DNA of 14,166 nt from an uncultured Clostridia bacterium (lineage in GTDB: Bacteria; Bacillota; Clostridia; Christensenellales; UBA1242). The stretch is taken from assembly GCA_944363385.1 (NCBI GenBank), contig CALVUB010000012.1:1-14166 (forward strand), in the 5' to 3' direction. This document shows, piece after piece, positions 4,010 to 14,166 of this stretch (positions within the stretch are counted from its first letter, which is position 1; every line of letters begins with the position of its first letter). The notes beneath the pieces were generated by a model. The model was given only the letters and a program-made list of their open reading frames with translations. It searched no databases and was not told the DNA's origin. The translations under genes were made by a program, and so were the position numbers.

Positions 4010-4861
4010 ATGAGCAAAAAAAGTAAAAAAATTATCATTTCGCTTTCTGTTGTTGTGGCGCTGATTGTAATTATTGTGGCGCTTTCTTTTACCGTTTTCT
4101 CGCTCAAAAAAGTAGAAATAGACTATCGAACTTCTCATAAAAATATAACCCTGTCTGAAAAAGAACTTGTTGAAGGGGGAGATTTTTCTTTTGGAGCCAG
4201 TGTGTTTTTCCATGGCAAGAATGGTTATATTGAAAAAATCGAGAGCCTTTCGCCTTATATCGAAGTGGTCAACATTGAAACAGTTTTTCCTTCAACTTTT
4301 GTTGTTCATATCGCAGAAAGGCAAGAGGTATACGCCTTTGCCTATAAAAATTCCACTTTTATTACCGACCAAAACTTGCGAATACTTAGAGAAGAAGAAA
4401 ATTTTGTTTCATATCGTGAAAATGCTATGCTTTTTGAAGGTGGTTTGATTGCGGAAAATGACTACCAAGTGGGTGACTATCTTCAGATTGAAAATTTTAT
4501 TGATATTTATACTTCTCTTTTTGAGTGTAATAGAACCTTAACTGAGCAGAGGGCGCTTATCTGTTCAATAGAGCTTTTGAGCGAATATGATGAAAACATA
4601 AAACAAACTCAAGTTACGGCCATTTTAAAGTTGTTTGGTGGACAAACTGTGCAGATAAAAAATGCAACTTATGGTCTAAAATACAAACTCAACATGTTTC
4701 TTTCTGTCTATTCAAATTTATACTCACTTATTGGTCAAGAGATTGCTTCTGGTGGAGTTTGGACTGAAGAGCTTATCGACAGTTGCACAATTATTGTAAA
4801 CAACTTCTATAACTATACCGAACATAACGAAACAGAGTGTTATTTCAACATTTTACCATAA
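4010..4861 (+). CDS. ftsQ: FtsQ/DivIB cell division protein with POTRA domain
   Basis: Bitopic divisome protein that links the cytoplasmic ring to septal wall synthesis with FtsL/DivIC. It has 283 residues: a basic N-terminus (MSKKSKK), one transmembrane helix at about 8-31, then an extracytoplasmic POTRA domain at about 32-110. The POTRA has the characteristic pattern SLSPYIEVVNIETVFPSTFVVHIAERQEVYAF (residues 79-110). A beta-domain of weak similarity follows to the C-terminus. The family is poorly conserved, so the call rests on topology, the POTRA signature and the position between murA and ftsA/ftsZ. There is no SD before the ATG, and a promoter abuts it. A strong terminator follows 17 nt after the stop. 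Because the organism appears to sporulate, the name divIB is equally suitable. Confidence 0.85.
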   Translation: MSKKSKKIIISLSVVVALIVIIVALSFTVFSLKKVEIDYRTSHKNITLSEKELVEGGDFSFGASVFFHGKNGYIEKIESLSPYIEVVNIETVFPSTFVVHIAERQEVYAFAYKNSTFITDQNLRILREEENFVSYRENAMLFEGGLIAENDYQVGDYLQIENFIDIYTSLFECNRTLTEQRALICSIELLSEYDENIKQTQVTAILKLFGGQTVQIKNATYGLKYKLNMFLSVYSNLYSLIGQEIASGGVWTEELIDSCTIIVNNFYNYTEHNETECYFNILP

Positions 4862-4878
4862 AAAAGAGGTGAACATTT

Positions 4879-4908
4879 GGACAAATTTTTTCGATTTGTC
4901 CTTTTTTT
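4879..4908 (+). terminator. Intrinsic terminator after ftsQ
   Basis: Perfect 8-bp stem GGACAAAT (4879-4886) / ATTTGTCC (4894-4901) with a 7-nt loop, followed by seven T's (4902-4908). It separates ftsQ from ftsA; the ftsA promoter begins only 3 nt later. Confidence 0.9.
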
Positions 4909-4911
4909 AGT

Positions 4912-4950
4912 TTGACATTATGGGTTTTATATATTAAAATATCACTATAA
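4912..4950 (+). promoter_or_regulatory. Strong sigma-A-like promoter for ftsA
   Basis: Consensus -35 TTGACA (4912-4917), a 17-bp spacer and -10 TAAAAT (4935-4940). The predicted start is at about 4947-4949, a few nt before an ATG at 4951. Bases 4933-4949 are identical to 3994-4010 at the ftsQ promoter. Confidence 0.8.
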
Positions 4951-4992
4951 ATGCACATGTGCGCACATTTTATTTTGTTGGTGGTCTTATGA
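4951..4992 (+). CDS. Possible leader peptide overlapping the ftsA start
   Basis: A 13-codon frame (MHMCAHFILLVVL) begins at the first ATG downstream of the strong ftsA promoter, almost at the predicted 5' end. It ends at TGA 4990-4992, overlapping the ftsA ATG (4989-4991) in an ATGA arrangement. This geometry suits a leaderless upstream frame that delivers ribosomes to ftsA, whose own SD is weak. The peptide itself is not recognised. The frame could also be chance, since it is short and has no coding statistics to test. Confidence 0.3.
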   Translation: MHMCAHFILLVVL

Positions 4993-6104
4993 AAAAAGAA
5001 AAGGTTTTGGTTTTTGAACTTGGCTCTTCCGCTTTGCGCGCAATGCTTGCGGGGCGGGGACTTAATAACACTTTTGTTGTCAAAGCATACAAAGAAATTG
5101 CTTATGATGGTTTTTATGAAGGCAAATTTCTTGAACCTGAAAAATTGACAACAATTTTTTCTCAAGTGATTTCTGAATTTGACTGCAAAGAAGAAGACAC
5201 AAAAAAGGTGTTTATCGGTGTGCCTGCTGAGTTTTCTTCTGTCAGCACAACCACGGTTTCTTTCAATCTTGGCAACAGAAGAAAGGTGAAAAGGCAAGAC
5301 ATTGACGAACTTTTCTATATGGCAAGTGAAAAAGCCAAAGACAGAAACGTTGAAATTTTGTCGGTGAGCGCTCTTTCTTATCTGCTTGATGAGGGCAGAA
5401 CTTCAATTGACCCAGTTGGCGAGAATGCCATTTCAATTTCGGCAAACCTTTCAATCATCTATGCAAACCGCACCTTTATCGAACTTTTCAACAAAATTGT
5501 TTCAGCCAACGAGTTTGAGTCGGTGGAATATATCTCAGAGCCTCTCGCTCAGGCTTTGTATGTTGTCAGCAAAGAGGAAAGAGAAGAGCCTTGTCTTATT
5601 ATTGATGTTGGAGACTTAACGACAAGCGCTTCATTTGTCAAAGGTGAGGGCTTAAGCAATATGGCCAGTTTTTCGCGAGGCGGTGGCTTTATCACAAATG
5701 ACCTTTCTGAAGCTTTTGACCTTACAATAAGCGAAGCTGAAAGGCTTAAAAGTCAAATTATACTTTCGCTTAAGGGCAGAAACAGTGATTATTATGACTT
5801 AACTACCGACCTAGGAAAAACCATTAAAATTCCGCTAAACAGCGCCAATGAGATTGTCTCTTTCCGCATTGAAGAAATTGCTCAAGCTGTTTCAAAATGT
5901 GTTCAACTGTTTTCTAAAAACTATATAAATTATCTGCCTGTATATTTAACGGGCGCTGGAATTAGCAAAATTAAAGGCGGGCGCGACTTTCTTGCCAAAT
6001 GCCTCGGCAGAAATGTCAAGTATGGCGTTCCACCACTTCCAGCAAAGGATAAGCCAGAACTTGCGTCAATTTATTCACTTGTCAACTCTGCACTAGGTCA
6101 ATAA
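4989..6104 (+). CDS. ftsA: Divergent FtsA-like actin-fold division protein
   Basis: Actin-like partner that normally tethers FtsZ to the membrane and recruits the divisome. From ATG 4989 it has 371 residues: phosphate-1 loop VFELGSS (8-14), a 1C/SHS2-type insert at about 80-165, the segment YISEPLAQA (181-189), phosphate-2 loop IIDVGDLTTS (204-213), SRGGGFITNDLSEAF (229-243) and adenosine loop VYLTGAGISKIKGG (318-331). Oddities: the family phosphate-1 Asp is Glu, phosphate 2 is DVGDLTTS rather than DIGGGTTD, and the protein stops right after subdomain 2A (SLVNSALGQ) with no linker or amphipathic membrane helix. A GTG at 4959 would add ten residues (MRTFYFVGGL), but the family N-terminus fits 4989. 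The only SD is a weak GGTGG (4980-4984). Position directly before ftsZ supports FtsA over other actin-like families such as PilM or EutJ. Confidence 0.82.
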   Translation: MKKEKVLVFELGSSALRAMLAGRGLNNTFVVKAYKEIAYDGFYEGKFLEPEKLTTIFSQVISEFDCKEEDTKKVFIGVPAEFSSVSTTTVSFNLGNRRKVKRQDIDELFYMASEKAKDRNVEILSVSALSYLLDEGRTSIDPVGENAISISANLSIIYANRTFIELFNKIVSANEFESVEYISEPLAQALYVVSKEEREEPCLIIDVGDLTTSASFVKGEGLSNMASFSRGGGFITNDLSEAFDLTISEAERLKSQIILSLKGRNSDYYDLTTDLGKTIKIPLNSANEIVSFRIEEIAQAVSKCVQLFSKNYINYLPVYLTGAGISKIKGGRDFLAKCLGRNVKYGVPPLPAKDKPELASIYSLVNSALGQ

Positions 6105-10083: not shown

Positions 10084-10365
10084 ATGGAAAGTTCATTTTT
10101 AGAGTTAAGATGCAAAGAAGTGGTCAATGTGCTGGATGGCAGAAAACTTGGCCATATCATCGACATCATCTTTGATTTGTCTTCGGCAAGAGTGCTTGGG
10201 ATTTTGGTGCCAGGTGAAAAAACGGGCTGGAATGTTTTCAAAAACTCAAATCAACTGTTTATTCCCTTTGGTTGTATTGTCAAAATTGGCGAAGATGCAA
10301 TTTTGGTGGAAGTGCAAGGGCAAGGAGTGCCAGAAAATCCTTATCAAGTTTTACAAAAAAAATAA
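10084..10365 (+). CDS. ymxH: YlmC/YmxH family PRC-barrel sporulation-associated protein
   Basis: Small single-domain protein of 93 residues. The sequence FLELRCKEVVNVLDGRKLGHIIDI (5-28) followed by ARVLGILVPG (34-43) and LFIPFGCIVKIGEDAILVEV (58-77) is the PRC-barrel pattern of the YlmC/YmxH family, which is linked to spore formers by conservation. Molecular function is not established. The gene lies just after sigG, as ylmC-type genes do near sigE-sigG in Bacillus and Clostridia. It has no SD, and a -10-like element sits immediately before the ATG, so it may be translated from a leaderless mRNA. A hairpin begins inside its last codons and acts as its probable terminator. Confidence 0.85.
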   Translation: MESSFLELRCKEVVNVLDGRKLGHIIDIIFDLSSARVLGILVPGEKTGWNVFKNSNQLFIPFGCIVKIGEDAILVEVQGQGVPENPYQVLQKK

Positions 10366-10384
10366 CAAATTTGTTTGTTATTTT
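10359..10384 (+). terminator. Hairpin terminator overlapping the ymxH stop
   Basis: AAAATAACAAA (10359-10369) pairs perfectly with TTTGTTATTTT (10374-10384) over a 4-nt loop, and a T-rich stretch follows. The stem is AT-rich. It overlaps the ymxH stop, and its right arm contains the -35 of the next promoter. Confidence 0.6.
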
Positions 10385-10403
10385 AAATATTTTTTGGTAT
10401 ACT
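10375..10403 (+). promoter_or_regulatory. Sigma-A-like promoter for the GLUG-repeat gene
   Basis: -35 TTGTTA (10375-10380), a 17-bp spacer and -10 TATACT (10398-10403), with an extended -10 TGG before it. The predicted start at about 10409-10411 coincides with the first base pairs of the structured leader. Confidence 0.75.
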
Positions 10404-10407
10404 AAGT

Positions 10408-10524
10408 GTGAGAGAAGGCAAAATTTGACTTGCAGTCAAATTTTTGCAAGGCTAAAAGCCTTGTTTTCAGCGCCCACCCGCCACCAACTGACGGCGGACG
10501 GGCGCTGAAAACGCCTTCTCTCAC
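10408..10524 (+). ncRNA. Compact four-helix structured leader or palindromic element
   Basis: A 12-bp closing stem P1 (GTGAGAGAAGGC, 10408-10419, with 10513-10524) encloses three hairpins packed side by side. P2: 11 bp, 10420-10430/10434-10444, loop TGC. P3: 7 bp, 10447-10453/10457-10463, loop AAA. P4: 12 bp, 10464-10475/10500-10511, plus an inner CCGCC/GGCGG stem (10478-10482/10493-10497) and a 10-nt loop. Only about three bases at the junction are unpaired. P4 is very GC-rich in an AT-rich neighbourhood. It sits between the promoter and SD of the GLUG gene. It could be a cis-regulatory RNA or a miniature palindromic repeat element. It matches no riboswitch or T-box that I recognise, and no target-site duplication is seen. 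Confidence 0.6.
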
Positions 10525-10539
10525 CGAAAAACCAAAAAC

Positions 10540-10545
10540 AGGAGG
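10540..10545 (+). promoter_or_regulatory. Shine-Dalgarno of the GLUG-repeat gene
   Basis: AGGAGG, 7 nt before ATG 10553, fixes the start of the open frame that runs off the right edge. Confidence 0.85.
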
Positions 10546-10552
10546 AAGAGAT

Positions 10553-13500
10553 ATGAAAACCAAAACCAAAAGCTTTTTTTCTCAAGCTTTCATGGCTCTA
10601 TTGTCTCTTCTTTTTTTGATAACCTCTGTCAATTTATTGCAAAATATCGGGGGGGGGACGACCGACCTTTCTGAAAATTCAATAGCCCAGGCTCCCACCA
10701 ACACAACCTACTGGATTGACGAAACAACACAAACTGCCCTCAGCGTTGATTTTGATAATTATTCTTTAACAAAGGACACCTCAGCCATCGATACTACATA
10801 TCTTATCCAGTCAGAAAAAGATCTAGCATTTCTTTCATGGACAATATATAACGATAAGGTTTACGGTGGCTCTTCAAATAAGGTGACAAGTGGTAGTAAC
10901 GACTATTTTTATTCAGATGTATGTTTCAAACAAACCAAAAATCTTGACCTTTCAGCATACTATTGGCAACCAATAGGTATAATCTATACACGAGACGGAA
11001 CAATTTCAAGGCGCTATTTTTCAGGCAACTATGACGGCGGAGGGCACACAGTTTCAGGTGTATTCACTCCAGCAGGTTTGGGCTATGCTTATTATTGTCA
11101 AGGTCTATTTGGCTATGTTTATGGCAGAAGTTCAACCCAGCGGGCGAGCATTTCAAATCTCGGAGTGATTGACTCTTTTATTCAAGGCGAAGATAATATT
11201 GGCGGAGTTGTGGGGCATCTTGATTATGCAACTGTAACCAATGCATATAACACAGGTTCAGTTAGTGGTTCTTCTTTTGTTGGCGGAGTTGTGGGGAGTC
11301 CATATTCCAATGCAACTGTAAGTAATGTATACAACACAGGTATAGTTAGTGGAAATTCTTGGGTTGGCGGAGTTATGGGGAGTGCATATTCTAATGCAAC
11401 TGTAAGCAATGTATATAACACTGGCACTGTTGAAGGAACAGGTGATCGAGTTGGCGGAGTTATGGGGAGTGCTAATGGAACTGTAAGCAATGTATATAAC
11501 ACAGGTTCAGTTAGTGGAAGTTCTAGTGTTGGCGGAGTTGTGGGGTATGTTTCTTCTAGGTCAACTGTAAGAAATGTATATAACACAGGCTCAGTTAGTG
11601 GAACAGGAGATTATGTTGGTGGAGTTATGGGGGGTGCTGGTTATAATGCAACTGTAAGCAATGTATATAACATAGGTTCAGTTAGTGGTTCTTCTACTGT
11701 TGGTGGAGTTGTGGGGAATGCGGATGCAACTGTAAGAAATGTATATAACACAGGTATAGTTAGAGGAGATTCTCAGGTTGGCGGAGTTGTGGGCTATACA
11801 TATTCTTCTTCAACTGTAACCAATGCATATTATGGTGGAGCTTGCACGCTTCCAGTTGGTATTGGCTCAGGCGAAGGTTCAGCAACAAAAATTGACAGTC
11901 CGGTTGAAGAGTGGGCAAAAAATGAAGAGTGGTATCTTAACTCTTCCAATTGGAACAGATCTTATCCATGGGACTTTGAAAATGTGTGGACATTTGAAAT
12001 AAAGAATGCACCAAGTTATATTAGTGACTTTATCTATCCATATTTACAAAGTCTTGGCACAGAAATCCCAGAGCATGAAATCATTTATTGGACAGATGAA
12101 GTGGCTCAAGAAGCGCTCGGCGTTGACTTTGATAACTATACTTTAACTCAAGACACCTCAGCCAGCACTACTACATATCTTATCCAATCAGAAACAGACC
12201 TGGCTTTTTTAAGCTGGACAATATACAACGACCAAGTCTATGGTGGGGAAGAAAATAAATACACAAGCGGAAGCATTAACTATTTTTATTCAGATGTATA
12301 TTTCAAACAAACAACAAACCTCGACCTTTCAGCATACTATTGGCAACCTATAGGTATAGGTTATACACGAGACGGAACAAGTGCAAGTCGCTATTTTTCA
12401 GGAAACTATGATGGCGGAGGATACACAGTTTCAGGTGTATTCACGCCAGCAGGCGATGACAGTGGTTATCATTATCAAGGGCTCTTTGGTTATATTCAAG
12501 GCAGAAGTTCGACCCAGCGTGCAACAATTGCTAATGTTGGAGTGATTGACTCTTTTGTTCAAGGTTATAATTATGTTGGTGGAGTTGTGGGGTATCTTTA
12601 TTATGCAACTATAAGCAATGCATATAACACAGGTATAGTTAGTGGAAGTTCTGAGGTTGGCGGAGTTGTGGGGTATGCTTTTAGTGCAACTGTAAGTAAT
12701 GTATATAACACAGGTTCAGTTAGTGGATCAGGAAATTGTGTTGGCGGAGTTGTGGGGTATGCTTCGTTTTCTAGAGCAACTGTAAGTAATGTATACAACA
12801 CAGGTTCAGTTAGTGGAAATTCTTGGGTTGGCGGAGTTGTGGGGTATGCTAATACTGGCGCTGGCATCAGCAATGTATATAACACAGGTTCAGTTAGTGG
12901 TTCTTCTCGTGTTGGCGGAGTTGTGGGGGATGCATATTCTAATGCAACTGTAAGAAATGCATATAACATAGGCTCAGTTAGTGGAAATTCTCAGGTTGGC
13001 GGAGTTGCGGGGATAGTTTCTTCTACGTCAACTGTAAGAAATACATATTATGGTGGAGCTTGCACGCTTCCAGTTGGCATTGGCTCAGGAAGTGGCTCGG
13101 CAAAAAAAATTGATAGCCTGGTTGAAGAGTGGGCACAAAATAAAGATTGGTATCTTGACTCTTCCAATTGGGACAGCTCTCATCCATGGGACTTTGAAAC
13201 TGTGTGGAATATTTCTGTAGTTTTTAACGGTGGCTATCCTTGTTTTGATGCTTTTTGGACTGACAAACTTGCCCAAAACCAGCTCGGCGTTGATTTTGAT
13301 AATTATAGTTTTGATATTGATGAGAAAAACCGCTCAATTTACTATATAAACAACGAGGCAGACCTTGCATATTTGAGCTGGGTGATAGAAAATGAAGCCT
13401 CTGATAAAGTTCACGTGATTGAAGGTATGATTTCTTGTTATTTTTCAGGCATAACCTTTGTGCAAACTGCCGACCTTGATTTGTCGGACTATTATTGGTT

Positions 13501-14166
13501 GCCAATTGCACAGCGCTTTGATGGACAAACGGGCGGAGTTATGTTTGCTGGAAGTTATGACGGCAATGGCTATTCAATTTCAGGTCTTTACACACCTGCT
13601 TTTCCTGATGACTATCAGGGTGACCCTTACGACTCGGGTTATGCCTATCGAGGGCTGTTCGGCACGGTTGTCAACCTTTCTTTGGTGGTTGGCAGTGGCA
13701 GTGGAAATTGCATTTTAGAGAACATAACCATTCTTGATAGTGTGATAAAAGGTTATGGAAATCATGGCGGATTGGTGGCGCGCTCTATGGGTGTTGACAT
13801 AAGCAATTGCCATGTTGAAGCCGATGTTTATGGCGCTTCTACAAATGGCGGAATTGTGGGAGAGTTAAGCTCTGCCACCTTGTCAAACTGCACCCATGTT
13901 GGGCTTATTCACACCACTGGCACTGGCTCGGGCGGACTGGTTGGCAATTTGTCGGGCTCAATCATTCACTGCACGCATATTGGTGATATTATAAGCGAGG
14001 GTTATGAAAACGGCGGAATTGCTGGTGTGGCATCATCTGGCGCAACCATTGACAGCTGTTTTGTTCAAGGCAATTTTAGTGGCTCAAGCTATGCGTTTGT
14101 GGGAAGAACAAATGGCTCAAATGTTATTTCTAACAGCGGTTTTGAAGGGTCGCTAGAAGTTCAAGG
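10553..14166 (+). CDS. Large secreted GLUG-repeat surface protein (partial, 3' end missing)
   Basis: One uninterrupted frame of 1204 codons that runs off the window. The N-terminus is signal-like: MKTKTKSFFSQ, then a hydrophobic stretch at about 12-29 (FMALLSLLFLITSV). It may remain an anchor or be cleaved later (AQA near 45-47). Three tandem modules follow, starting at residues 54, 513 and 902. Each opens with a Trp and GVDFDNY-like region (SVDFDNY in module 1), then YLIQSE-DLAFLSW, NLDLSAYYWQPIG and SGNYDGGG-TVSGVFTPAG, and continues into GLUG-type repeats (VGGVVGY, ATVSNVYNTG, SVSG) of about 27 residues. Modules 1 and 2 close with YYGGACTLPVGIGSG and a Trp-rich segment. GLUG repeats occur in cell-surface and adhesin-like proteins, so an extracellular role is inferred; ligand and anchor are unknown. 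Nine consecutive G's at codons 33-35 make it a candidate phase-variable gene. Strong SD; own promoter and structured leader. Confidence 0.9.
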   Translation, partial: MKTKTKSFFSQAFMALLSLLFLITSVNLLQNIGGGTTDLSENSIAQAPTNTTYWIDETTQTALSVDFDNYSLTKDTSAIDTTYLIQSEKDLAFLSWTIYNDKVYGGSSNKVTSGSNDYFYSDVCFKQTKNLDLSAYYWQPIGIIYTRDGTISRRYFSGNYDGGGHTVSGVFTPAGLGYAYYCQGLFGYVYGRSSTQRASISNLGVIDSFIQGEDNIGGVVGHLDYATVTNAYNTGSVSGSSFVGGVVGSPYSNATVSNVYNTGIVSGNSWVGGVMGSAYSNATVSNVYNTGTVEGTGDRVGGVMGSANGTVSNVYNTGSVSGSSSVGGVVGYVSSRSTVRNVYNTGSVSGTGDYVGGVMGGAGYNATVSNVYNIGSVSGSSTVGGVVGNADATVRNVYNTGIVRGDSQVGGVVGYTYSSSTVTNAYYGGACTLPVGIGSGEGSATKIDSPVEEWAKNEEWYLNSSNWNRSYPWDFENVWTFEIKNAPSYISDFIYPYLQSLGTEIPEHEIIYWTDEVAQEALGVDFDNYTLTQDTSASTTTYLIQSETDLAFLSWTIYNDQVYGGEENKYTSGSINYFYSDVYFKQTTNLDLSAYYWQPIGIGYTRDGTSASRYFSGNYDGGGYTVSGVFTPAGDDSGYHYQGLFGYIQGRSSTQRATIANVGVIDSFVQGYNYVGGVVGYLYYATISNAYNTGIVSGSSEVGGVVGYAFSATVSNVYNTGSVSGSGNCVGGVVGYASFSRATVSNVYNTGSVSGNSWVGGVVGYANTGAGISNVYNTGSVSGSSRVGGVVGDAYSNATVRNAYNIGSVSGNSQVGGVAGIVSSTSTVRNTYYGGACTLPVGIGSGSGSAKKIDSLVEEWAQNKDWYLDSSNWDSSHPWDFETVWNISVVFNGGYPCFDAFWTDKLAQNQLGVDFDNYSFDIDEKNRSIYYINNEADLAYLSWVIENEASDKVHVIEGMISCYFSGITFVQTADLDLSDYYWLPIAQRFDGQTGGVMFAGSYDGNGYSISGLYTPAFPDDYQGDPYDSGYAYRGLFGTVVNLSLVVGSGSGNCILENITILDSVIKGYGNHGGLVARSMGVDISNCHVEADVYGASTNGGIVGELSSATLSNCTHVGLIHTTGTGSGGLVGNLSGSIIHCTHIGDIISEGYENGGIAGVASSGATIDSCFVQGNFSGSSYAFVGRTNGSNVISNSGFEGSLEVQ
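10649..10657 (+). repeat. Homopolymer G9 tract in the GLUG gene
   Basis: Nine G's encode Gly33-Gly35 directly after the signal-like segment. The frame is open with nine. Loss of one G gives a stop (TAG) about 12 codons on; gain of one gives TGA about nine codons on. No comparable G run occurs elsewhere in this AT-rich window. Confidence 0.9.
10712..12088 (+). repeat. Tandem module 1 of the GLUG protein
   Basis: A 1377-bp module (residues 54-512) made of a non-repeat head, eight GLUG units and a YYGGACTLPVG / WDFE tail. It is strongly similar to module 2 at DNA level across the head (for example TCAGCATACTATTGGCAACC in both, at 10956-10975 and 12330-12349), indicating a fairly recent duplication. 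Confidence 0.85.
11198..11839 (+). repeat. GLUG repeat block 1, eight units
   Basis: Eight in-frame units of about 80 bp (residues 216-429). Each has VGGVVG or VGGVMG, a variable 4-6 residue patch, then TVSNVYNTG and SVSG. The variable patches and a few TVEGTGD-type joins differ between units. Confidence 0.9.
12089..13255 (+). repeat. Tandem module 2 of the GLUG protein
   Basis: An 1167-bp module (residues 513-901), near copy of module 1 but with two fewer GLUG units and a different, shorter joining segment after the WDFE tail. Confidence 0.85.
12575..13057 (+). repeat. GLUG repeat block 2, six units
   Basis: Six in-frame units of about 80 bp (residues 675-835), with the same core as block 1. 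The last unit ends in TYYGG like the last of block 1. Confidence 0.9.
13256..14166 (+). repeat. Tandem module 3 of the GLUG protein (diverged, incomplete)
   Basis: The third module starts at residue 902 with LGVDFDNYSF, DLAYLSW, DLDLSDYYWLPI and GSYDGNGYSISG. Its repeats (from 13763; at least five) are of the more usual GLUG form, such as GGLVGNLSGS and GGIVGELSSATLSNC. It is clearly diverged from modules 1 and 2 and runs off the window. Confidence 0.8.

Follow-up and report, generated by a model that had tools for sequence, protein, structure and literature searches.

Shape-conserved cloverleaf palindromes in a genus of Clostridia: a family that includes the predicted leader of a GLUG-motif gene

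Introduction

What is the compact palindrome that fills the predicted leader of a GLUG-motif gene in an uncultured Clostridia bacterium, and is it peculiar to that gene? The window analysed here is a whole stretch of 14,166 nt; it is C12, one of the contigs in a draft genome of 764 kb and 73% completeness. A sequence-only reading had described four helices at the 5' end of the GLUG transcript and proposed either a new cis-regulatory or mRNA-stabilising RNA or a miniature mobile palindrome inserted in the leader. The observation is right and larger than first noted, as it concerns a family of shape-conserved cloverleaf palindromes and not a single leader; the interpretation, taken as a whole, is partly supported. 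The window element belongs to a family of compound intergenic palindromes known so far from this genus only; in our main reading, to which we give a probability of about 0.4, they would work by their fold as end-guards of transcription units. Genes other than GLUG and PRC-barrel are called by what we take them to be from their translations, not from a family search.

The window element and its leader setting

Positions 10408–10524 of the window (plus strand) form a 117-nt cloverleaf, whose helix coordinates were counted by hand on the sequence. The two arms of the 12-bp closing stem P1 (10408–10419 and 10513–10524; sequence and predicted fold) enclose the A/T-rich hairpin P2 (11 bp; 10420–10444) and the hairpin P3 (7 bp, or 8 with a G-U pair; 10447–10463), both from predicted fold and sequence, and the G/C-rich hairpin P4 (12 + 5 bp; 10464–10511), predicted on both strands. 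The inner 5 bp of P4 are separated from its 12 bp by A-C oppositions on the plus strand, and three junction bases (10445, 10446 and 10512) are unpaired. The fold is real: the minimum free energy of 10390–10540 is −79.6 kcal/mol, compared with −34.2 ± 3.7 kcal/mol for 200 dinucleotide shuffles (z = −12.2; 0/200 as good). The closing stem, the three hairpins and the roughly three unpaired junction bases are as they had been described. Because the four A-C oppositions of P4 become G-U pairs on the minus strand, where P4 pairs throughout, that strand is slightly more stable (−76.8 vs −72.3 kcal/mol). No Rfam family (riboswitch, T-box, tRNA or leader) matched the window at its gathering threshold and, within 10350–10600, nothing at E ≤ 10 came near a gathering score, in agreement with the earlier failure to recognise a riboswitch, T-box or tRNA.

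A promoter-like sequence, TTGTTA-17-TATACT with TG before the second hexamer (10375–10403, plus strand; 9/12 consensus matches), ends 4 nt upstream of P1. Transcription starts, as a rule of thumb, about 7 nt downstream of the second hexamer, so the start is predicted among the first few bases of P1, as the sequence-only reading had placed it. Downstream, a Shine-Dalgarno-like AGGAGG (10540–10545, plus strand) and the ATG at 10553 are unpaired in the predicted transcript, save for weak pairing just around the ATG. The GLUG-motif gene that bears the leader (10553–14166, plus strand; PF07581, E 6e-28) runs off the window. The same predicted order of promoter, cloverleaf, Shine-Dalgarno sequence and ATG is found in four GLUG leaders.

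A recurrent three-armed architecture

The first detector looked for a closing stem around at least two single hairpins and covered 628,363 bases of the genus. At ≤ −0.40 kcal/mol/nt it returned 10 structures, among them the window element and its identical copy; all 10 had three arms though two were allowed, and block shuffles gave none. At ≤ −0.30 kcal/mol/nt the same 628 kb held 13 three-armed structures, compared with 0 in block-shuffled copies, which excludes chance. A faster detector, which counted matches with three or more arms and misses the window element and its copy, found 9 real and 0 shuffled matches in the 628 kb of the genus, 7 and 0 in 400 kb of genome G028, 5 and 0 in 499 kb of sigma-G loci, and 7 and 0 in 201 kb of GLUG and DivIVA loci. 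Other genera of the family and order gave 1 real match in 317 kb (L254, with four arms), which was set aside as equalled by 1 in the shuffles. The phylum set gave 11 real and 6 shuffled matches in 380 kb, and its 11, all in stretches L222 and L229, were judged to be chance in view of the shuffled count. The density in genus stretches is about 14–17 elements per Mb.

The working set comprises 39 elements at about 30 sites, with orthologues grouped by us. Three arms were parsed in 38 of them, and the remaining one (G063_glugA) is three-armed by a separate fold; since most of the set came from detectors that demanded at least three arms, the statement that there are exactly three rests on the scan that tolerated two. 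The 38 parsed elements are 76–161 nt long (median, 92.5 nt), and their P1 has a median of 11 bp. Left out of the set were the L222, L229 and L254 matches, covariance-model matches outside the genus, the model matches L276, L277 and L269 (the last being the L072 site), and three-armed matches weaker than −0.40 kcal/mol/nt (three of them between −0.30 and −0.40), while G063_glugA was added.

Unlinked members have the architecture in common and no common sequence. When 23 elements were compared by BLAST with 2.32 Mb (partly overlapping), full-length matches were confined to orthologues or to copies before paralogous GLUG genes, and the remaining matches covered 25–41 bases in single arms of two elements. 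Such intergenic elements are normally recognised by sequence, so the retention of shape while sequence changes is unusual. We regard it as highly probable that this scattered family of cloverleaf palindromes in the genus is real.

Copies and paralogues before GLUG genes

Within the draft genome, an identical element precedes another GLUG gene on contig C85, in a block that is 97% similar over 334 bases and covers promoter, leader and gene start. The similarity declines upstream and deeper into the gene, and since it is limited to these parts, C12 and C85 carry a duplicated or converted block. On C24, the leader of another GLUG gene, the third, differs in sequence and takes the same cloverleaf form (z = −3.9), so that the cloverleaf is present in 3/3 GLUG genes of this genome with a matched N-terminus. 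In a DNA search of 200 relatives with the 117-nt sequence, the only match outside the own genome was one of 32 bases in G064, in apparent coding sequence.

Of the 64 stem bases compared between the GLUG leaders of C24 and G028:C1, 62 are identical and the remaining two make up a single compensated pair; the loops are largely changed. The GLUG genes of C85 and G028:C1 have one neighbour gene in common, yet the G028:C1 leader resembles that of C24 and not that of C85, so leaders have moved between GLUG paralogues. Among 30 GLUG loci (L098–L127) the detector found only L104 at its cut-off. Two further cloverleaf-bearing GLUG leaders of G063, the genome of L104, came from stretches (L146 and L141), and one of the three G063 leaders has an altered, still paired P1. 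The compensatory changes upstream of other surface genes that had been named as support for a regulatory RNA are therefore found in GLUG leaders (C24 with G028:C1, and G063). For the proposed regulatory or mRNA-stabilising RNA, the four-helix structure in a predicted leader and the compensated cloverleaves before other surface-protein genes hold up; the idea that the element is special to GLUG leaders does not, given the single find among L098–L127 at the cut-off and the location of most members elsewhere. A literature search on GLUG returned nothing relevant.

Pairing kept at orthologous sites

One orthologous site separates a DivIVA-like gene from an SDR-like gene that is convergent with it. 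The cloverleaf is present in 7/10 of the nearest orthologous loci (identity of about 75% or more); the other three (G059, G089 and G076) reach at most −0.25 kcal/mol/nt and have a lone terminator-like hairpin. Among 20 farther DivIVA loci (46–56% identity), none is at ≤ −0.40 kcal/mol/nt except two tRNA-like 72-nt matches, the next best being −0.33. On a DivIVA tree of 18/30 loci, presence of the cloverleaf maps as one change, with weak support (67/81).

Across the seven cloverleaves the closing stem is almost completely changed, starting with GACGCCCGTT, GGGCGCCCGT, GCGCCCATTG, GCCCAGCCCA, CCCAGCCCAC, GCCCAGCCCAC and AAAGCGCACA. In a seven-row alignment, in which MAFFT aligns the arms of the two groups poorly, the covariation score is 0.262, compared with 0.140 in shuffles (0/500) and at most 0.158 in slid versions, over which the tested structure is favoured because it was derived from the same seven sequences. 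Paired cells amount to 72.6% vs 64.2% shuffled (0/500) and double-change cells to 21 vs 8.2 (0/500); two weaker measures are pairs with a double change (9 vs 6.1; 12/500 as high) and further pair types (21 vs 18.5; 80/500). Compensatory change beyond controls, with three of the five measures exceeding all 500 shuffles, applies to the DivIVA site only. Elsewhere, one compensated pair is seen between the orthologues L070 and L072. Orthologous sites thus do show paired changes, an observation that stands beside those of the architecture and its recurrence. Elements also decay: at the C6 site (L133:9818–9912) the sister L161 (G200:C3) keeps the left half only, and two other relatives are without the element.

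In the sisters G000 and G028 the outer arms at the DivIVA site are alike, and the middle arm differs except for its T/A-tract base. Template switching has been proposed (PMC8794818) to make and maintain perfect hairpins in one step. The elements might accordingly be mutational attractors, palindromes built and repaired by template switching with little or no selected function, for which this pattern of arm change speaks. We consider this quite unlikely, since the three-arm design is fixed, the stems of GLUG leaders are better kept than their loops, the family is limited to one genus as far as tested, and terminator content differs by setting.

The C6 site and the sequence comparisons also bear on the miniature mobile palindrome. 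Dispersed intergenic copies at the density given above are what a mobile element would leave, but among the 23 elements compared with 2.32 Mb, unlinked copies have no common body or ends apart from the short single-arm matches, the identical C85 copy sits in a longer duplicated block, and the C6 sister genome retains a left half, not an empty site. By the usual marks of MITEs, there were no sequence-related copies with common ends, and no precise empty site was seen at the orthologous sites read by eye. This option fares worst of those considered and is very improbable.

Gene context, terminators and strand preference

Contexts were taken from crude ORF calls and reading, and the 39 elements were assigned to classes by us, not blind: 11 are leader-type (roughly 20–77 nt before a start), 11 lie between co-directional genes, 11 between convergent genes (7 of them the DivIVA site) and 6 are other or unclear, which places 28/39 outside leaders. 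By a lax test (GC stem plus T-tract), terminator-like arms occur in sense and antisense, respectively, in 3 and 4 of 11 leaders, 8 and 9 of 11 co-directional elements, 9 and 9 of 11 convergent elements, and 5 and 5 of the 6 others. By the same lax test, they occur in both directions in 21/28 non-leaders and 0/11 leaders. The window element and its identical copy are two of the three leaders flagged in sense; a stricter scan finds no terminator there, including none in window 10300–10700. A leader must let polymerase pass, and the difference in terminators therefore fits a role at transcript ends. The simpler description, as no more than a pair of opposed terminators, suits most convergent sites and fails for L155, L153b, L206, L270, L017 and the three G063 GLUG leaders, in which the lax test finds no terminator-like arm.

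The strand on which the elements pair best differs by context. On the sense strand of leaders, non-Watson-Crick oppositions are 14 A-C and 3 G-U (10 and 2 without the identical copy), compared with 2 A-C and 8 G-U in co-directional elements. For reference, acceptor stems of 21 tRNAs from the same stretches have 6 G-U and 1 A-C (tRNA vs leaders, Fisher p = 0.004, with the identical copy counted and the counts not independent). Given this A-C excess, and an antisense fold that is the better one in 8/8 leaders with a difference of at least 0.3 kcal/mol, it is not obvious that leader pairing is under selection in the sense RNA; both observations speak against such selection. Summed over all 39 elements, the sense strand has 24 G-U and 26 A-C oppositions, beside 1,492 pairs that are Watson-Crick whichever strand is read, so there is no overall strand preference.

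These counts keep DNA-level constraint in play, together with the repair of arms by template switching, as serious rivals. A DNA-level element would act in the form of a cruciform or of single-stranded DNA folded on itself; it might, for instance, be a site of recombination or gene conversion through which blocks of promoter, leader and signal peptide pass among GLUG paralogues. The scarcity of wobble pairs and the absence of an overall strand preference are consistent with it, as are C12 and C85, alike in promoter, leader and the first part of the gene and then diverging, and the C24-like leader of G028:C1 beside C85's neighbour gene. We nevertheless hold it to be unlikely because co-directional elements prefer the sense strand (the antisense fold is better in 2/9) and many members adjoin single-copy genes without evident exchange. 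Alternatively, the leader element could be an antisense insulator, acting mainly on transcripts returning from the gene or on antisense RNA. The antisense strand is more stable in 8/8 leaders that differ by at least 0.3 kcal/mol, with the copy left out, and 4/11 leaders have an antisense terminator-like arm; however, the eight represent only about five independent groups, at most three of these with an antisense terminator, and the window element is not among the four, so we rate the insulator as improbable.

Taxonomic range

A covariance model (R1) was built only from the seven DivIVA-site sequences. Run on 19 sources with known elements, it ranked the unrelated members L072, L221, L145 and L070 best (E 0.00015 to 0.003) after G028, on which it had been trained, and gave L209 and L204 at E 0.3–0.7 together with some noise matches. 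At E ≤ 10 it recovered the elements of only 6/19 sources and missed the very window element from which the analysis started. Across 112 genomes of the genus it matched 19 places in 18 genomes, 7 of them training sites; 10 of the 12 other matches are cloverleaves at the match position (one, L269, being the L072 site), and L276 and L277 were rejected as not being cloverleaves. A search of 396 genomes of the order scored fewer candidates and was less sensitive, missing the true G026 site; outside the genus it gave matches in five genomes, none a good cloverleaf, as four had no cloverleaf and one was weak (−0.33; L284). To the extent of these tests, the family is confined to the genus.

Discussion

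The preferred reading is that the elements act through their fold as guards at either end of a transcription unit. Where a gene ends, the outer arms would often serve as back-to-back intrinsic terminators, and much of the middle arm would consist of their facing T- and A-tracts paired with each other. In leaders, where the two-way terminator feature is missing, polymerase could pass, and the folded 5' end may protect the GLUG mRNA from 5' decay with the Shine-Dalgarno sequence left free; the window element would then probably cap the GLUG mRNA at its 5' end. For arms that change as a whole, template switching during replication would be the best explanation, the pairing being preserved by selection. 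A further point stands against the mechanism: termination at an outer arm would end the RNA before P1 forms, but the convergent site has preserved its P1. Beyond the single element, we tentatively suggest a fold-defined class in which arms turn over as whole units and the architecture is inherited per locus, and in which a general transcript-end guard may have been adapted as the 5' leader of variable surface-protein genes.

The 5'-terminal stem-loops that stabilise mRNA in Gram-positive bacteria are usually described as simple hairpins. The window element resembles them in its stable structure at the extreme 5' end with a free Shine-Dalgarno sequence downstream, both predicted here, and differs in being a closed four-helix structure with a putative stabilising role.

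Palindromic structured-RNA candidates and bidirectional intrinsic terminators are described in PMC8040213, where 230/250 could form terminators. They are alike in having palindromic structures on both strands of one place, and many arms are terminator-capable here too. Those families came from sequence-structure alignment, whereas unlinked members here have only the architecture in common, and leaders here are without the two-way terminator; the words "cloverleaf" and "hairpin" are absent from the main text of that paper. REP sequences are 20–40-bp sequence families with GTAG or CGTC tags (PMC3733652). Like REPs and BIMEs, which are intergenic palindromes often located between unidirectional or convergent genes with proposed roles in termination and mRNA stabilisation (PMC3733652), our elements sit between genes, but they are 76–161-nt three-armed structures without a common sequence. 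Many similar copies per genome characterise REPs and BIMEs, and the window's own genome has one other full copy, in the duplicated block. No description of a cloverleaf class defined by fold only was found in the accessible parts of the open-access literature searched.

Families that keep their shape and not their sequence escape sequence clustering, and covariance models serve them poorly, so they may be overlooked. The orthologous sites with near-complete stem replacement offer a natural test that sets template switching against stepwise compensation and asks whether shape by itself can be a selected trait at bacterial transcript ends.

Several single elements have features of their own. The longest three-armed element (L206:2589–2749; 161 nt) follows a stop codon directly, is separated by 78 nt from the co-directional gene that comes next, and contains 4 G-U and 2 A-C oppositions. 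At L032:4155–4290, the leader cloverleaf of a predicted secreted-protein gene is apparently enclosed by complementary flanks (GCGAGC / GCTCGC), perhaps as part of a larger nested structure. One arm of the C6 element (L133:9852–9886) has 30–41-base matches elsewhere in G000 and its relatives, perhaps lone terminators of the same sequence. In the window itself, a run of nine G near the GLUG coding start (10649–10657) could be a slippage (phase-variation) tract; the run is also long in the C24 paralogue and interrupted in that of C85. Finally, the closest relative from the sigma-G search (L006; 99% identity) has, at 4200–5700 compared with window 10366–11200, a different surface-protein gene after the PRC-barrel gene, and the leader of that gene is plain; the locus has thus exchanged its surface gene.
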